Shown: positions 9,335-29,259 of the stretch, piece by piece
Layout of the letters: each line of letters begins with the position of its first letter
Position numbering within the stretch: the first letter of the stretch is position 1
Assembly: GCF_003999255.1 (NCBI RefSeq)
Contig: NZ_CP034791.1
Coordinates: 1,032,501-1,096,500, forward strand
Direction: 5' to 3'
From: Caldicellulosiruptor changbaiensis
Lineage (GTDB): Bacteria > Bacillota > Thermoanaerobacteria > Caldicellulosiruptorales > Caldicellulosiruptoraceae
Length of the DNA stretch: 64,000 bases
Made by a program: the position numbers and the translations under genes
The notes under the pieces: model-generated
Databases searched by the model: none
What the model was told of the DNA's origin: nothing
The model's input: only the letters and a program-made list of their open reading frames with translations

Positions 9335-9459
9335 TTTGAAAGCAAAAAGGGGAAACGATGTATGTAGGTTACTAACAAAAGGTAAATGACCGACGAGATG
9401 TTTGAGGCAGAGAAATAGAGACTTTCACAGTTTAGCAGGCAAACTTCTAAAATTTTCTA

Positions 9460-9488
9460 TTGCCAGTTATCAGTTTTTTTGATATACT
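9460..9488 (+). promoter_or_regulatory. trp operon promoter
   Basis: TTGCCA (9460-9465) and TATACT (9483-9488) are 17 bases apart. Transcription would start near 9495, giving a leader of about 170 bases up to the attenuator terminator at 9666. Confidence 0.75.
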
Positions 9489-9554
9489 AAAAATAACAAT
9501 TAAAGGTGTAACCAAATTTATCATAAGCAGAATTTTAGAAAGAGAAAAGATTTT

Positions 9555-9617
9555 TAGTTTTTAAGTTGAGATGAGACGAGATGAGAATAGAAAAGATGAG
9601 AGGAGATGAGCTACAAG
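9555..9617 (+). promoter_or_regulatory. TRAP-type binding site (NAG triplet repeats)
   Basis: Ten triplets, AAG GAG GAG GAG GAG TAG AAG GAG GAG GAG, start at 9563 and recur every 5 bases through 9608. Further NAG triplets lie at 9555 (TAG) and 9615 (AAG). The trp RNA-binding attenuation protein TRAP, an 11-mer ring, binds about 11 (G/U)AG triplets spaced by 2-3 bases in Bacillus trp leaders. The last GAG lies inside the antiterminator strand, so bound protein would block antitermination. No TRAP gene is in the window. Confidence 0.85.
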
Positions 9618-9655
9618 ATGAATAAGGTGGCAAATATGCGCCCCGATAGCTCATC
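9605..9655 (+). promoter_or_regulatory. trp leader antiterminator
   Basis: GATGAGCTA (9605-9613) is the perfect reverse complement of TAGCTCATC (9647-9655). The second strand is also the loop and 3' arm of the terminator, so the two structures exclude each other. The first strand overlaps the final TRAP triplet, as in the B. subtilis trp leader. Confidence 0.8.
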
Positions 9656-10985
9656 GGGGCTTTTTTGCTATCAAGGTGTAAGTATAAATATTCCTTTCTT
9701 CGAAGAATATTTTGACAGTTCAGTTGACATATCTCATATTGATTTTGAGTCAATAGGGGAAGATTATTTCTATTTTGAAAATTCCCAAATATTGGCGTTT
9801 TGCTATGACACTCTTTTGGTCATAAAGGTGTTTGAAAATAGAATTGAGATTGAAGATGATTTCAATAAAGTGGTTGAACATGAAGGGGTTTTAGAAAAGC
9901 TCAATAAAATCTTAACGTATTTGATTGAGAAAAATGCATTTATATCAGCGCGTTTTAATTACCATGCTATAAATTTGATAGAAGACATTTACTCAACTGA
10001 TGAGCCATACATTGTATTTACTATATACAAAAAGAATTTCATAGTTGACAAAAACTTAGGGAATGGCAAAGTGCTTGTTCCCAAAGGCTTTGAGTTCAAA
10101 GGGGAAAACTTTAACAAGTTCAATGGGAAAAACCAAAAAGTCACGAGCAAGGTTTTGTACAATACTCCAAAAGATTACTATATCAGTATAGTTAAACAAG
10201 CAAAAGAGGATATAAGAAACGGAGAAATTTTTCAGATTGTACTGTCTCAAGTGATAAAGATAAAAAGCGATATTTCAACAAACCAGCTCTTTTACACAAT
10301 GAAAGAAAAGAATCCGTCTGAGTACTCTGTTGTAATAAATACCAAAGATGAGCAGATTATTTGTTTTTCACCAGAGACACTGATTAAAAAGGAGAAAAAC
10401 ATTGTAAAGACATTCCCTATTGCTGGCACATATAGAATCAATGATGGTGATGATGTTGCACAAAAAAAGATAGAGATATTAAAAGACAAGAAAGAAATCA
10501 GTGAACATGTGATGCTTGTAGACCTTGCCAGAAATGATTTGGGGAGAATCTCAAAAGCCGGCACAGTAAAAGTAGAGGAATATCTACAGATTAAAAAGCT
10601 TTATAACCTCATACACATCTATTCAGTTGTCACAGGTGAGCTTGAAGAGAAAAACCTTGTAAAAGCGATACTTTCAGTATTTCCAGCAGGCACGCTGACA
10701 GGTGCACCAAAGGTAAGAGCAATGCAACTAATAGAAAAATATGAAAGGCAAAGACGCGGACTTTATGGAGGTGCGATAGGTTACATCTTCAAAGATTGTT
10801 TTGACTTAGCAATTGCAATCAGAATGGCCATAAAGGACAAGAGGGAAAGTACATTTCTACTTCAAAGTGGAGCTGGAATTGTTAACCTTTCTGTTCCTGA
10901 GAATGAATACCAAGAGTGTTTGACAAAGCTGAGAGCTTTTTTGAAAATTATGGAGGTGGATGAAAATGATATTGTTAATAGATAA
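9636..10985 (+). CDS. trpE: Anthranilate synthase component I
   Basis: The enzyme makes anthranilate from chorismate with TrpG. PIAGT (about residue 260) carries the Ala typical of TrpE rather than the Lys of PabB. Other motifs are HVMLVDLARNDLGRIS, FPAGTLTGAPKVRAMQLIE (about 349) and LQSGAGIV. At about 449 residues it is short at the N-terminus: the LLES tryptophan-binding motif is not visible, and NPSPYMF reads NPSEYSV. The start is uncertain. ATG 9636 has AAGGTGG 5 bases upstream but lies before the attenuator, so the terminator would fall in codons 2-11. After the terminator AAGGTG (9673) precedes only ATA/ATT codons. Confidence 0.92.
   Translation: MRPDSSSGLFCYQGVSINIPFFEEYFDSSVDISHIDFESIGEDYFYFENSQILAFCYDTLLVIKVFENRIEIEDDFNKVVEHEGVLEKLNKILTYLIEKNAFISARFNYHAINLIEDIYSTDEPYIVFTIYKKNFIVDKNLGNGKVLVPKGFEFKGENFNKFNGKNQKVTSKVLYNTPKDYYISIVKQAKEDIRNGEIFQIVLSQVIKIKSDISTNQLFYTMKEKNPSEYSVVINTKDEQIICFSPETLIKKEKNIVKTFPIAGTYRINDGDDVAQKKIEILKDKKEISEHVMLVDLARNDLGRISKAGTVKVEEYLQIKKLYNLIHIYSVVTGELEEKNLVKAILSVFPAGTLTGAPKVRAMQLIEKYERQRRGLYGGAIGYIFKDCFDLAIAIRMAIKDKRESTFLLQSGAGIVNLSVPENEYQECLTKLRAFLKIMEVDENDIVNR
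9640..9666 (+). terminator. trp attenuator terminator
   Basis: GCCCCGAT (9640-9647) pairs with ATCGGGGC (9653-9660) around a 5-base loop, followed by TTTTTT (9661-9666). It is a strong rho-independent terminator between the leader and trpE. It should form when tryptophan-loaded TRAP masks the antiterminator. Confidence 0.9.
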
Positions 10986-11577
10986 CTACGATTCATTTAC
11001 ATTTAATATTTATCAGATGATTGCAAGCAAAACTCAGGTAGTAGTTTTTAGAAACGACAAGGTTACAATTGACACCATACAAAAACTAAACCCTGCAGGA
11101 ATAATAATCTCACCTGGGCCAGGAAGCCCCAAAGATGCAGGTATTTCATCAGAGGTAGTAAAGAAGTTCGCGGGGGTAGTCCCAATATTGGGGGTATGTT
11201 TGGGACATCAGGTGATAGGCGAATGTTTTGGAGCAAAAGTTGTGCATGCAAAATCTATATACCATGGGATGAGGTCTCGAGTTGACTTATTAGAAGCAGG
11301 TAAAAGAAGTCCACTTTACAAAGGTGTGCCAGACAGGTTCTTTGCAGGCAGATACCATTCTTTGGTTGTAGAAAAGACAGCATCATTGCAGGGACTCGAA
11401 ATAGCAGCAGTAAGTGAAGATGGTGAGGTTATGTCAATTTTGAATGATGAGCTAAAAATATATGGAATTCAATTTCACCCTGAATCAATATTGACACCTG
11501 ATGGGGAAAAGATATTACAGAACTTTTTAGATTTGTGTTATGGGCAGGTGAAAGAAGATGCTCAAAGAAGCGCTTGA
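10966..11577 (+). CDS. trpG: Anthranilate synthase component II (glutamine amidotransferase)
   Basis: The 203-residue amidotransferase supplies ammonia to TrpE. Class I GATase motifs are present: [12 protein letters not shown] at the start, SPGPGSP (about 50), the catalytic Cys in GVCLGHQ (about 79) and QFHPESI with the catalytic His (about 170). ATG 10966 has GGAGG 9 bases upstream; an in-frame ATG at 10960 is too close to it. The gene overlaps trpE by 20 bases. Such an enzyme may also serve p-aminobenzoate synthesis, as in B. subtilis. Confidence 0.95.
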
Positions 11578-12568
11578 GGTTATAACAGCAAAAAAAGATT
11601 TGGATTATGTCCAAGTAAAAAGACTTTTGGAAAGCATACTTGATGGCGAGCTTGATGAGATAAAGTTTGGAGCTTTTTTGGCAGCACTTAAAACAAAAGG
11701 AGAGACAAAAGAAGAAATCTCTGCTTTTGTTGATGCATTTTATGAAAAGGCTCAAAAGATTGAATATACTCATCCAAAGACGATAGACACATGTGGGACT
11801 GGTGGAGATGGCAAAGGTACATTCAATATTTCAACTGCAAGTGCGATAGTTCTCAGCTGCTTTGATTTAAAGGTTGCAAAACATGGTAACAGAAGTATTA
11901 CGAGCAATTCTGGTTCTGCAGATATTTTAGAAAATTTAGGCATAGATATCCAGGCACCACCCCAAAGAATTTTAGAAGGTTTGGAAAAGCTCAATTTTGC
12001 GTTTTTATTTGCTCCCAAGTACCATCCAGCAACGAAAAAAGTGGCAACTGTAAGAAAGTCACTTGGCATAAGAACAGTTTTTAACATCTTAGGTCCACTT
12101 TTGAACCCTGTAAGTTTGAACTATCAAGTTGTTGGTGCTTTTGATTTTGAAGCACAGGAAAAGATAGCTTCTGTTTTGAAAGGAAGAAGAAAAAGGGCGG
12201 CTGTTATTCACAGTCTTGATGGGCTTGATGAAATTTCGGTTTCACAGAAAACAAGAGTTTTAGAGTTGCAAGGTGATAATATCAAAGAATACTACATAGA
12301 CCCAAAAGAGTATGGTATAGAGTACACACTTGATGATATTAAAGGATATACCCCGCAAGAGAATGCGAAAATTTTTATGAGTATTTTAAATGGTGAGGTT
12401 TCTGCTTATTATTGGGCAGTTGTTCTAAATTCTGCTTTTGCTCTTTATATTGCCGAGGTTGCAAATGATATTGAAGAAGGTATTGCCTTGTGCCAAAGTG
12501 CAATAAAAAAGGGTGATGCGATGTTAAAGCTTAAAGATTTGCAACAACACTATAAAGTGGGGGCTTAA
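11558..12568 (+). CDS. trpD: Anthranilate phosphoribosyltransferase
   Basis: The 336-residue enzyme joins anthranilate to PRPP. It carries [15 protein letters not shown] (about 72-86) for PRPP and Mg2+ binding, [18 protein letters not shown] (about 107-124) and [10 protein letters not shown] (about 149). Length and motifs are typical of the family. It overlaps trpG by 20 bases, which implies translational coupling. Confidence 0.95.
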
Positions 12569-12572
12569 AAAA

Positions 12573-13355
12573 GTGAGTGTACTTGAAAAGATATTAGAGG
12601 TCAAGAAGAAAGAAGTCGAAAAGTGCAAACAATTAGTTCCAGTTGAAAAAATGAAGAAATTAGCTATTGAAAAGTGCACTTCTACATCTTGTGAGAACAA
12701 GTTCAGGAATATCTTTAAAAAAGAGAATTTTTGTATCATTGGTGAAATAAAGCGTGCATCTCCATCTGAAGGTATAATTTCTGAAAATGTTGATGTCAAA
12801 GGAATCGCAAAGCTTTACGAGAGCTTAGGGTTTTTTGCAATATCTGTGCTGACAGAAAAGAACTTTTTCAAGGGATCTGAACAGGACTTGATGGATGTCA
12901 AAAGTGCTACTTCTCTTCCTATTTTGAGGAAGGATTTCATCATCGACATATGGCAGCTGTACCAGACAAAGATGATAGGTGCAGATGCCGCTTTGCTTAT
13001 CACAAAAGCCTTGGGTAATAAGCAGCTCAGCATTTTTATAAAGGTGTTAGAGATTCTTGACATTGTTCCTCTTGTTGAAGTTGAAAACGAATATGAGATT
13101 GAAAAAGCTTTAAATAGCGGGGCTAAATTGATAGGGATTAATAACAGAAATTTGGATGATTTAACAATTGACCTTAAAAAAACAGAAAGACTTTTAAAAT
13201 ATATTCCAAAAGATGTAGCAGTTATAAGCGAAAGTGGGATAAAATCAAGAGAAGACTTTGAGTATATCCGTTCTTTGGGTGTGGATGGCTGTCTTATAGG
13301 AACATCTTTTATGAAAACTCAAAATCCGATCGAGATAATTGGTGAGAGAATATGA
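12573..13355 (+). CDS. trpC: Indole-3-glycerol phosphate synthase
   Basis: The 260-residue TIM-barrel enzyme closes the indole ring. It has IIGEIKRASPSEG with the catalytic Lys (about 52), LTEKNFFKGS (about 90), LRKDFIID (about 112), LVEVENE (about 163), GINNRNLDDLTID (about 183) and SESGIKSREDFEY (about 215). GTG is the start, four bases after the trpD stop, with only a weak upstream ribosome site, so coupling to trpD is likely. Confidence 0.95.
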   Translation: MSVLEKILEVKKKEVEKCKQLVPVEKMKKLAIEKCTSTSCENKFRNIFKKENFCIIGEIKRASPSEGIISENVDVKGIAKLYESLGFFAISVLTEKNFFKGSEQDLMDVKSATSLPILRKDFIIDIWQLYQTKMIGADAALLITKALGNKQLSIFIKVLEILDIVPLVEVENEYEIEKALNSGAKLIGINNRNLDDLTIDLKKTERLLKYIPKDVAVISESGIKSREDFEYIRSLGVDGCLIGTSFMKTQNPIEIIGERI

Positions 13356-13951
13356 TAGTAAAGTTCTGCGGAATAAGAAGAGAAGAAGATGTTGAGTACT
13401 GCAACATCTTAAATCCCACTATGATAGGCTTGATCTTTGCCGACAGTCCAAGGAAAGTTGAAAAAGACACTGCAAAGAGATTGCTGGCTATGAAAAATCC
13501 TTCTATAAAATCAGTTGGAGTTTTCAAGAACCAAACTCTCAGCGAAGTCTTAAGTATCAGTAAAGATTTAAAACTTGACTTTATACAACTACATGGCAAT
13601 GAAAGTATCGAGTTTATCACATACTTAAAAAGCCAAGGTTTCAAGATTATTAAAGCAGTCGAGGTAGAGAAGGTAAATGACATTGAAAGATCAAAAATTT
13701 ATAAGGACATAGTAGACTTTATCCTTCTTGACAGACCAAAGGGAAAGGAGATAGATATAGTTCAGCTTGCAAAAAATGCCGATTTTGATTTTATCATTGC
13801 AGGGGGAATTACGCCTGAAAATGTTGAAAGGTATCTTGCCCTTAATCCTCTTGGGATTGATATCAGTTCAGGGATAGAGACGAATGGATTTAAAGATTTT
13901 AATAAAATGAGGGCTATCGTAGAAAAATTAACAAAAATACAAGGTTGGTGA
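13352..13951 (+). CDS. trpF: Phosphoribosylanthranilate isomerase
   Basis: The 199-residue TIM-barrel isomerase converts phosphoribosylanthranilate to CdRP. It shows [11 protein letters not shown] with the catalytic Cys (residue 5), [20 protein letters not shown] (about 74), FILLDRPKG with the catalytic Asp (about 124) and [10 protein letters not shown] (about 148). It shares ATGA with the end of trpC. Confidence 0.94.
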
Positions 13952-13959
13952 AGTTAAGA

Positions 13960-15135
13960 ATGGATAGGTATTTTGGCAGGTTTGGTGGTATGTATGCGCC
14001 AGAGGTTTTGATGCCAGCACTGCTTCAGATAGAAAAAGAGTTTGAAAGGTTAATTGAAGACGAGAATTTTAAATCTGAATATGAGTTTTATCTCAAAAAC
14101 TATGTTGGAAGACCATCTCCACTCTACTTTGCAAAGAATCTGAGTAAACACCTTGGTGTCAAGATATACCTAAAAAGAGAAGATCTGAACCACACAGGTG
14201 CTCATAAGATAAACAACTGTATAGGCCAGGCACTTTTAGCAAAGCACATGGGCAAAAAGAGAATCATCGCCGAAACAGGTGCGGGTCAGCACGGTGTTGC
14301 AACAGCTACCGTCGCAGCTCTTTTTGGCATGGAATGTGAGATATTCATGGGCGAAGAGGATGCAAAAAGGCAGTATCATAATGTGCAAAGAATGAAGATG
14401 CTTGGCAGCAGTGTCAGAGTAGTTGACAAAGGTAGCAAAACGTTAAAAGATGCTATAAACGAAGCAATGCGTGACTGGAGTGAGACATATGATTACACTT
14501 TTTATCTTTTTGGTACCGCTGCAGGACCACATCCTTTTCCAAGGATAGTAAGGTATTTTCAAAGTGTCATTGGCAATGAAACAAAAAAGCAAATATTAGA
14601 GCAAGAGGGAAGACTACCTGACTATGTTTTTGCATGTGTGGGTGGTGGGTCAAACGCAATTGGTATTTTTTCTGCCTTTTTAAATGAGCCTGAGGTAAAG
14701 CTGATAGGTGTTGAAGGTGCAGGCGAAGGTGTGAATACCGGAAAGACTGCTGCAACACTTTGCAGCGGCTCTGTTGGCATCCTTCATGGTGCAAAGACGT
14801 ATGTACTGCAGGATGAAGATGGCCAGATTTTAAACACACATTCAATATCAGCAGGTCTTGACTATCCAGGGGTTGGTCCTGAACACGCTTACTTAAAAGA
14901 GATAGGAAGAGTTGAGTATGTGGGGATAGAAGATGAAAAGGCAGTAGAGGCATTTTTGCTTTTGTGTAAGCTGGAAGGGATTATTCCTGCTTTAGAGAGC
15001 TCTCATGCCATTGCAGAGGTTGTAAGAAGGGCAAGAAATGGTATGTTCAAAAAAGACGATGTGGTTGTTATAAATCTTTCTGGAAGAGGAGATAAGGATA
15101 TTGCTACTATTTTACAGTTTTGGAGGGAAGATTAA
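13960..15135 (+). CDS. trpB: Tryptophan synthase beta chain
   Basis: The 391-residue PLP enzyme condenses indole with serine. It has [15 protein letters not shown] with the PLP lysine (about 80-85), [15 protein letters not shown] with the catalytic Glu (about 105), [10 protein letters not shown] phosphate loop (about 228) and LSGRGDKD near the end. It is the standard TrpB1 type that works with TrpA. ATG 13960 is preferred; a GTG at 13948 is an alternative. The start lies eight bases past the trpF stop. Confidence 0.96.
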
Positions 15136-15137
15136 AG

Positions 15138-15899
15138 GTGAGTTTGATTGATAAGAAATTTGAGGATCTAAAATCGAAGGGGAAAAAGGCATTTATTGGT
15201 TATACAACATTTGGCTATCCAACTAAGGAGGAAACTCTTGAGTATATAAAGCTTATCTATTCTTATGTAGATGTTTTGGAGCTTGGCTTTCCATTTTCTG
15301 ATCCTATTGCAGATGGTGAGGTTATTCAAAGAGCGTCTGTTAAGGCCTTGAAAGAAGGTGTAAAATTAGACCATCTTTTTTATAGCATAGAAAAGTTTAA
15401 AAAGGACAAGCCCATTGCAATAATGCTTTATGCAAACACAGTTTACAAAAGGGGAATTGAAAAGTTTTTCAAAGACTGCAAAGACTTTGGTGCAGATGCA
15501 GTGATTATACCTGATGTTTCGTATGAAGAAAGCGCTGAGTTTAAGGATGCTTGCAGGGAAAATGGAGTGCATTATATTGACCTTGTATCTATAAGCTCAA
15601 TTGAAAGAGCAAAAATGATTGCAAGAACTTCAAAAGGGTTTGTTTACTGTGTTACAAGAAAAGGTGTTACAGGCTTTAAAGGCGAAATTGACAAAAGCAT
15701 TTATGAACTATTAAGTGAACTAAAAAAAGTTACTTCAACACCCCTGGCAGTAGGATTTGGAATCAAGAGCAAAGAAGATGTGCTGAGGTTTAAAGACTTA
15801 GCAGATGGCATTGTCATTGGAAGCGCTATTATAAATAAGATTGATGAGGGGAAGGAAAATTTGGTTAGATTCTTAGAAACAATTAGAAGTGTTTTATAG
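15138..15899 (+). CDS. trpA: Tryptophan synthase alpha chain
   Basis: The 253-residue TIM barrel splits indole-3-glycerol phosphate. It has ELGFPFSDPIADGEVIQRA with the catalytic Glu and Asp (about 42-56), YANTVYKRG (about 97), IPDVSYEE (about 125) and GFGIKSKEDV (about 208). GTG 15138 is chosen, two bases after the trpB stop, with GGAGG 11 bases upstream; a TTG at 15120 would overlap trpB. It is the last gene of the seven-gene operon. Confidence 0.94.
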   Translation: MSLIDKKFEDLKSKGKKAFIGYTTFGYPTKEETLEYIKLIYSYVDVLELGFPFSDPIADGEVIQRASVKALKEGVKLDHLFYSIEKFKKDKPIAIMLYANTVYKRGIEKFFKDCKDFGADAVIIPDVSYEESAEFKDACRENGVHYIDLVSISSIERAKMIARTSKGFVYCVTRKGVTGFKGEIDKSIYELLSELKKVTSTPLAVGFGIKSKEDVLRFKDLADGIVIGSAIINKIDEGKENLVRFLETIRSVL

Positions 15900-26486: not shown

Positions 26487-26563
26487 GCCCACGTAGCTCA
26501 GTAGGTCAGAGCGTCACCTTGGTAAGGTGGAGGTCACCGGTTCGATTCCGGTCGTGGGCTCCA
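26487..26563 (+). tRNA. tRNA-Thr (GGT anticodon)
   Basis: A 77-base tRNA with acceptor stem GCCCACG/CGTGGGC, anticodon loop TTGGTAA, T-loop TTCGATT and encoded CCA. It lies in front of rpmG-secE-nusG and may share their transcript. Confidence 0.97.
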
Positions 26564-26746
26564 TTTTAGTTATTGACAATTTTAATTGTTTATGATAGAT
26601 TTAAAAAGTCAGACAAAGATGGCTTATTTTTTTTTGCTAATTTTTTGCTCTGATAGGTAAAAGGAAAATTGCAATACCAAATCTTAAAGAGAGTAAAAAG
26701 CAGCTTTTTTTCAAAGGTTTTAGATAGTGGAGGTGAATAGAATAAG

Positions 26747-29025: not shown

Positions 29026-29055
29026 TTTTCATTGAAGATTAAAAAGTGAATATTC

Positions 29056-29128
29056 TACAACCGAAGACAGTAGGTGCAAAGCACTTTTGAAAAAGTGCTT
29101 TGCTTAAAGTTTGCCTACCGAGGTTGTA
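29056..29128 (+). ncRNA. L10 leader (ribosomal protein leader RNA)
   Basis: TACAACC (29056-29062) closes with GGTTGTA (29122-29128). Inside are CCGAAGACAGTAGGTGC, a long AAAGCACTTTT hairpin and GCCTACCGAGG, the conserved kink-turn-like region bound by the L10(L12) complex in rplJL leaders of Firmicutes. It is followed by a terminator-like hairpin before rplJ, so excess L10-L12 probably represses its own operon. Confidence 0.85.
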
Positions 29129-29199
29129 ATTATTAAATCCGTCGGCTGATAAAAGCTTTTTTTAAGTGGTATTGTTAGCCGAGGGGAAGGGTAATTACA

Positions 29200-29240
29200 G
29201 CCTCTTTAAGGTAAACTTAAAGAGGCTTTAATAATTTTTA
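29200..29240 (+). terminator. rplJL attenuator hairpin
   Basis: GCCTCTTTAAG (29200-29210) pairs with CTTAAAGAGGC (29216-29226) around 5 bases and is followed by a T-rich run. It lies between the L10 leader and rplJ and is the likely attenuator. Confidence 0.75.
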
Positions 29241-29259
29241 TGGGTAGGAGGTGAGTTTA

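Follow-up and report, generated by a model that had tools for sequence, protein, structure and literature searches.

The trp operon of Caldicellulosiruptor changbaiensis follows a run of evenly spaced NAG triplets and a terminator-like hairpin, which raises the question of whether these elements form an attenuator controlled by TRAP and, if so, where that attenuator ends and trpE begins. An earlier note on this DNA had placed a complete TRAP-type attenuator in front of trpE. Judged from sequence, we hold it to be quite probable that the operon is controlled by a TRAP-dependent attenuator, but one in which both the terminator and the ribosome-binding site are merged with the 5' end of trpE. The window (the whole stretch of 64,000 nucleotides that was analysed) encodes the operon in the order trpE-G-D-C-F-B-A, as supported by NCBIfam (Table 1): TrpG, TrpD, TrpC, TrpB, and TrpA score over the curated cut-offs, and the matches of TrpE (best 307.6 bits against 512.05) and TrpF (139.2 bits against 215) fall below them. 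Transcription would start near 9495.

Table 1. Features of the trp leader and operon, in positions of the window.
Feature	Position	Strand	Basis or remark
Probable sigma-A promoter, TTGCCA-17-TATACT	9460..9488	+	2 promoter-like sites against a shuffled mean of 1.3, hence weak evidence
Upstream TAG triplet	9555..9557	+	Off the 5-nt period, 8 nt away
Putative TRAP-binding array	9563..9610	+	10 NAG triplets (7 GAG, 1 TAG, 2 AAG), exact 5-nt period
AGGAG, Shine-Dalgarno-like, inside array	9601..9605	+	Would serve ATG 9618
Antiterminator 5' arm GATGAGCTA	9605..9613	+	Overlaps last triplet (GAG 9608-9610 within arm)
Downstream AAG triplet	9615..9617	+	Off the 5-nt period, 7 nt away
trpE, anthranilate synthase component I, divergent N-terminal part	9618..10985	+	Family searches
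Most likely trpE start ATG	9618..9620	+	Invariant in 13/13 family genomes
AAGGTGG, second Shine-Dalgarno-like sequence	9624..9630	+	Could serve ATG 9636
Alternative trpE start codon	9636..9638	+	ATG or GTG in 11/13 family genomes
Intrinsic terminator stem-loop	9640..9660	+	Codons 8-15 of trpE numbered from 9618
Antiterminator 3' arm TAGCTCATC	9647..9655	+	Overlaps terminator
Terminator T6 tail	9661..9666	+	Direct reading and terminator scan
trpG	10960..11577	+	NCBIfam
trpD	11558..12568	+	NCBIfam
trpC	12573..13355	+	NCBIfam
trpF	13352..13951	+	NCBIfam, below curated cut-off
trpB	13945..15135	+	NCBIfam
trpA	15120..15899	+	NCBIfam

Direct reading confirms the ten triplets at an exact 5-base period that the earlier note had listed: in the order AAG GAG GAG GAG GAG TAG AAG GAG GAG GAG, they start at 9563, 9568, and so on to 9608, and the two extra flanking triplets are also real, both lying off the period. 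Eight of the ten are GAG or TAG; stable TRAP binding is reported to involve seven or more triplets, with 11 in B. subtilis (PMC4027176). A 10-fold AG pattern allowing up to three mismatches matches the window four times, each time at this array in another overlapping register, and never matches in 100 dinucleotide-shuffled copies of the window; a 7-fold AG pattern with no mismatches finds the trp leader as the sole place in the 2.9-Mb genome (four overlapping registers). The trpE array is also the top match in the genome (40.2 bits) of an array model, R1, which was built from 16 arrays (seven from the family) and contains the array itself.

A TrpE search of the family (Caldicellulosiruptoraceae) located the trp locus of all 13 genomes (L044-L056), and each of the 13 leaders carries an array as well as a hairpin whose tail is rich in T, along with the trpE frame. 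R1 ranks the trpE leader first in all 13 genomes, seven of these 13 leaders being in the model, and a strict 7 x DAG pattern matches 11 of them; the two missed, in G009 and G010, contain CAG and also a step of 6 nt. Outside the family, exact 7 x DAG matches away from trpE occur in three of 24 genomes, all within other long reading frames, and the one such match away from trpE within the family (G003, L185) also lies inside a reading frame.

The earlier note had further predicted an mtrB gene elsewhere in the genome, or else another ring protein that reads the same RNA code. The window's genome has one match to PF02081 (131.3 bits; G000:C1:1465927-1466130), not adjoining the trp operon, which scores above the cut-off of the NCBIfam equivalog NF009724 (138.2 bits against 117) and is close to solved TRAP crystal structures (E 1.3e-29 to 1c9s); with mtrB itself present, a different ring protein is rejected. 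All 13 family genomes carry the TRAP gene, which was found in none of 24 other genomes of the class (E up to 0.001). In the MtrB protein (P0001), E41, K42, K61, and R63 are invariant across the 13 family genomes and, by B. subtilis numbering, presumably align with Glu36, Lys37, Lys56, and Arg58. The latter four are reported RNA-contact residues of TRAP (PMC4027176). The mtrB search and the leader alignment therefore returned both a TRAP-like protein and a triplet spacing conserved in related trp operons, the two things on which the earlier note had staked its reading.

That the triplets are a chance periodicity of purine-rich, low-complexity DNA, with TRAP control absent, has a negligible probability. 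AG-rich DNA can mimic short arrays, and the 7-fold pattern allowing up to two mismatches is not commoner genome-wide than its reversed control (51 against 56 matches), so that weak arrays mean little; however, the array at issue is perfect, it lies in the trp leader of an mtrB-bearing genome, and it recurs throughout the family while being absent from the shuffled sequences. The presence of mtrB and the conservation largely refute a chance origin.

The remaining anatomy is also of the TRAP type. The two antiterminator arms are perfectly complementary over 9 bp, and the terminator stem pairs GCCCCGAT (9640-9647) with ATCGGGGC (9653-9660) in 8 bp around a 5-nt loop. Because 9647 and 9653-9655 are common to both helices, antiterminator and terminator are mutually exclusive, as the earlier note had read them, a pair that folding and conservation support; direct reading confirms the six T and the overlap of the last GAG with the antiterminator strand. 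In 9335-9720, two terminator-like sites were found, both belonging to the region of this hairpin, and shuffled sequence gave 0.1 on average. Among the 13 family leaders, antiterminator pairing is kept in 97.4% of cells and terminator pairing in 99.0%, against at most 50.9% and 51.0%, respectively, when the partner is slid. Pair covariation is thin, the terminator score being reached by eight of 500 shuffles and the antiterminator score by 64 of 500. In G012, which belongs to another genus, T9607->A, T9647->A, and A9653->T occur together, such that one 3' base shifts along with both of its alternative partners and this pair of each helix is kept; the G012 antiterminator keeps seven of nine pairs and has lost two others. 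G009 has one broken pair in each helix.

Where the locus departs from the earlier description is in the position of trpE. No stop codon interrupts the trpE frame between the last triplets and the end of the gene, terminator included, and four in-frame starts precede the terminator. AGGAG stands upstream of the ATG equivalent to 9618 in all 13 family genomes, at a distance that in the window is long (12 nt). The region 9618-9695 contains no indels in any of the 13, and the alignment before ATG 9618 has 1-21 gap columns per genome. After the terminator, the nearest in-frame ATG, GTG, or TTG is 31 to 77 codons on in all 13 genomes and falls within the family-conserved part of TrpE. The numbers of variable sites at codon positions 1, 2, and 3 (12 genomes) are 5, 1, and 5 in 9618-9639 and 9, 6, and 7 in 9661-9695, which is suggestive only as a sign of coding across the terminator. 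The terminator thus appears to lie within the first codons of trpE, and the AGGAG inside the TRAP site is likely to be the trpE Shine-Dalgarno sequence. An attenuator “in front of” trpE is therefore not borne out, and with an invariant upstream ATG and the first later in-frame start at least 31 codons past the hairpin, the terminator does not appear to lie in an untranslated leader of the B. subtilis type.

Two other start codons were considered. ATG 9636 has the better spaced Shine-Dalgarno-like sequence (AAGGTGG), and its position is occupied by ATG in two and GTG in nine of the 13 family genomes; it was demoted as the prime start given GTC in G010 and AAA in G012, against the invariance of ATG 9618. 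ATG 9606 lies directly against AGGAG and is absent in G012. The N-terminal part of TrpE is itself divergent (its sole Pfam match is Chorismate_bind, and TIGR00564 gives 286.5 against a cut-off of 517.7), and the tryptophan feedback site of this TrpE may be different from the usual one.

It is improbable that the attenuator is instead an ordinary one, as in B. subtilis, with trpE starting past the terminator, perhaps at a non-standard codon, and the open frame being accidental. An in-frame ATA at 9684 does follow an AAGGTG at 9673-9678, and the frame is also open through the terminator in seven of 20 array-plus-terminator loci outside the family that do not have the embedded layout (L152, L157, L161, L169, L170, L215, and L220; see below). 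However, the AAGGTG is not retained in most other family genomes, and the distance to the next standard start, the indel-free region, and the invariant upstream ATG speak against an accidental frame.

Folding indicates when the switch would have to operate. For the free RNA at equilibrium, the terminator is favored (-13.8 kcal/mol against -9.2 kcal/mol for the antiterminator), with a probability of 0.99 even without TRAP; because the terminator wins in this way, antitermination must be kinetic, taking place during transcription. Co-transcriptional folding at 37 C gives P(antiterminator) 0.98 with the RNA 3' end at 9655-9656 and P(terminator) 0.99 from 9660 on, and at 70 C the corresponding values are 0.78-0.84 and 0.87. 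At 70 C both helices are weak (terminator -6.0 kcal/mol, antiterminator -1.4 kcal/mol). When longer RNA was folded, the predicted accessibility of the start sites did not distinguish RNA masked by TRAP from unmasked RNA.

From these elements we infer TRAP binding, a response to tryptophan, termination in vivo, the start codon used, and a translational block, as follows. At low tryptophan, TRAP would be unbound and the nascent 5' arm would pair with the 3' arm of the antiterminator, such that the terminator would come too late and the polymerase would read on; ribosomes would then initiate at ATG 9618 (or 9636) and decode the terminator stretch as part of trpE. When tryptophan is ample, the NAG triplets would be wrapped by the TRAP ring, which would also take the antiterminator 5' arm, allowing the 9640-9660 hairpin to form, and transcription would end at the T run inside trpE. 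In transcripts that escape termination, the same TRAP ring would hide the AGGAG Shine-Dalgarno sequence in the array, and translation would be blocked.

That the hairpin mainly blocks translation at the trpE start, with TRAP control being translational and the terminator in a minor role, is unlikely in our estimation. Such an arrangement would accord with a Shine-Dalgarno sequence within the array and with the G012 tail, TTTCATTTT, a poor terminator. It would also accord with the leader of Halanaerobacter jeridensis (L153, ~1378-1425), where eight triplets end a few bases before the trpE ATG, no terminator scored above the script threshold within 190 nt, and the one hairpin seen has -8.3 kcal/mol; this is a possible case of a purely translational TRAP-trpE switch. 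Against it, the stem is followed by five or more consecutive T in all 12 genomes of the window's genus, and the antiterminator, which would be superfluous under pure translational control, is conserved. The attenuator merged with trpE may also be extended, tentatively, to include the ribosome as part of the antiterminator, in which case, in two groups of Firmicutes, whether trpE is transcribed and translated would depend on one competition between TRAP and the ribosome. On the nascent RNA, a 30S subunit initiating at 9618 or 9636 would itself sit over the terminator 5' arm (9640-9647), and TRAP, once on the Shine-Dalgarno sequence, would eliminate this ribosome along with the RNA antiterminator.

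Leaders outside the family provide the background for the embedded layout. A related-locus search yielded 108 TRAP-coding stretches, of which the best 80 were mostly from Clostridia by their titles; in 62 of these genomes searched for TrpE (TIGR00564, E up to 1e-100), it was matched in 24 of 29 genomes in a first set and 25 of 33 in a second. The best locus per genome (49 outside the family and the 13 family loci) was classified by an array of at least five triplets near the frame and a terminator within 190 nt, with second TrpE/PabB-like loci (L176-L181 and L237-L241) left out. Five of the 49 have no script-found TrpE, 14 have no array (among them L165 and L171, where an array lies further upstream), four have an array without a terminator (in L154, L155, and L216 a terminator is nonetheless visible on inspection), and 26 have both. 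In eighteen of these 26, the terminator is preceded by no standard in-frame start, and trpE has to begin downstream of it. Overall, 20 of the 26 look classic, including L152 and L169, which have starts on both sides of the terminator, and six have the terminator in frame in the embedded layout: L172, L227, L228, L229, L233, and L235. By their titles, the six are Thermosyntropha lipolytica, two Syntrophomonas, two Syntrophomonadaceae, and one Bacillota bin.

In all six of these Syntrophomonadaceae-type loci, the upstream ATG follows an AGGAG that belongs to the array, except that the AGGAG of L235 overlaps only the array end. L172 also has a script-listed TTG with AGGAG 57 nt past the terminator, L233 has a GTG 27 nt past it, and L228 has a GTG behind GGGG soon past the hairpin, the hairpin scored by the script in L228 being different from the array-linked one. 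These cases are good, on sequence grounds, but weaker than the 13 family cases; L174 and L225 show a similar layout by eye, with broken arrays. A quick TrpE tree was made from 56 rows out of the 62 loci, after dropping the five without a script-found TrpE and one shorter than 280 residues, and cutting the long rows L217 and L234 to 560 residues. The 13 family rows and nine Syntrophomonadaceae-type rows (the six classified loci plus L174, L225, and L230, assigned by eye) form two groups in this tree. Two independent origins of the layout are unsupported, since holding both groups together is not rejected (p-AU 0.602, the held tree being 4.6 log units better), and the family's place in the tree is unsure because its branch measures 3.37 changes per site.

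The attenuator is read as one of the TRAP type because its anatomy matches the B. subtilis system, with which it shares a TRAP homolog, a run of about 11 (G/U)AG-type triplets, and overlapping antiterminator and terminator (PMC3913778; PMC4027176). To that extent the earlier note was right to invoke the architecture known from B. subtilis trp; the layout, however, differs, as the same accounts place the B. subtilis antiterminator and terminator in a 203-nt leader upstream of trpE, with the terminator at +108 to +133 (PMC3913778; PMC4027176). Unlike B. subtilis (trpEDCFBA), the window has the terminator in trpE codons, the Shine-Dalgarno sequence likely in the array, and trpG in the operon. The classic Firmicutes TRAP leaders (L158, Heliorestis; L160, Clostridia bacterium 41_269; L167, Desulfofundulus) also have an array and then a terminator, and in L160 and L167 a hairpin CTCAT is complementary, by eye, to a triplet's ATGAG; in contrast to the family, trpE in these leaders has to begin, or in all likelihood begins, past the terminator.

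In Bacillus, TRAP-controlled termination upstream of trpE and the blocking of the trpE ribosome-binding site use separate RNA elements, the B. subtilis layout having a hairpin of its own to sequester that site. The B. subtilis genes trpG, trpP, and ycbK are translational TRAP targets, in which the TRAP site overlaps the ribosome-binding site and no attenuator is known. The TRAP site of the window likewise lies on the putative ribosome-binding site, but here one site would do both jobs. As in premature termination inside open reading frames as a means of regulation in E. coli, transcription would end within the coding sequence; the available part of that account mentions no TRAP or triplet switch (PMC7815308). 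No paper on TRAP or mtrB with Caldicellulosiruptor was found in the open-access literature, and no description of the embedded layout occurred among the matches listed for open-access literature on TRAP distribution and coding-sequence terminators, with publication elsewhere being possible. The embedded layout would be a new form of TRAP attenuation, the kind itself being known from Bacillus. Termination and ribosome-site blocking appear to be compressed into the start of trpE in the 13 family genomes and in six Syntrophomonadaceae-type leaders, such that a single RNA element could shut off trpE at the levels of transcription and translation alike. The locus lends itself to testing how TRAP and the ribosome compete on nascent RNA, and it warns gene callers that the trpE start may sit in a regulatory hairpin region.

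The window's genome also differs from B. subtilis in the accessory components of the system. Anti-TRAP (PF15777, E up to 1) had three weak matches in this genome, the best with 17.3 bits against a cut-off of 32 and situated in a 393-aa frame; these are regarded as noise because the same threshold gives matches in 13 of 14 control genomes. The T-box model (RF00230, E up to 0.001) had no matches in the genome and detected the B. subtilis positive control. Thus, anti-TRAP under a Trp T-box, as in B. subtilis, was not found above threshold, and the genome may have a simpler TRAP system.

A genome scan with R1, in which 150 of 1532 first-look candidates were scored and weaker targets may have been missed, gave eight matches at E up to 1 in the window's genome, of which trpE alone was below 0.01 and no other was convincing as a TRAP target. 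In a sister genome, nine in-phase NAG triplets (L255, ~1500-1546; G011:C1:419663-419704; 25.5 bits, E 3.1e-5) stop 3 nt short of the ATG of an amino-acid permease (PF13520), which is probably a second TRAP target, controlled at translation; in the window's genome a comparable leader carries an eroded array and is followed by a different gene (L030). In the stretch that separates an iorB-like from a paaK-like gene (L272-L283, before the match at 1501; ior gene naming by eye), a run of AAG and GAG, with about four to six triplets in phase, is present in all 12 family genomes with this gene; it could represent TRAP control of indolepyruvate metabolism, or simply a purine-rich Shine-Dalgarno sequence. 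Elsewhere in the window, a match to Rfam HPnc0260 (RF02194, 61.9 bits) on the - strand at 26525-26657 overlaps a tRNA antisense at 26487-26560 and is probably spurious, and an ordinary Ribosomal protein L10 leader (RF00557, 64.4 bits) lies at 29043-29241.
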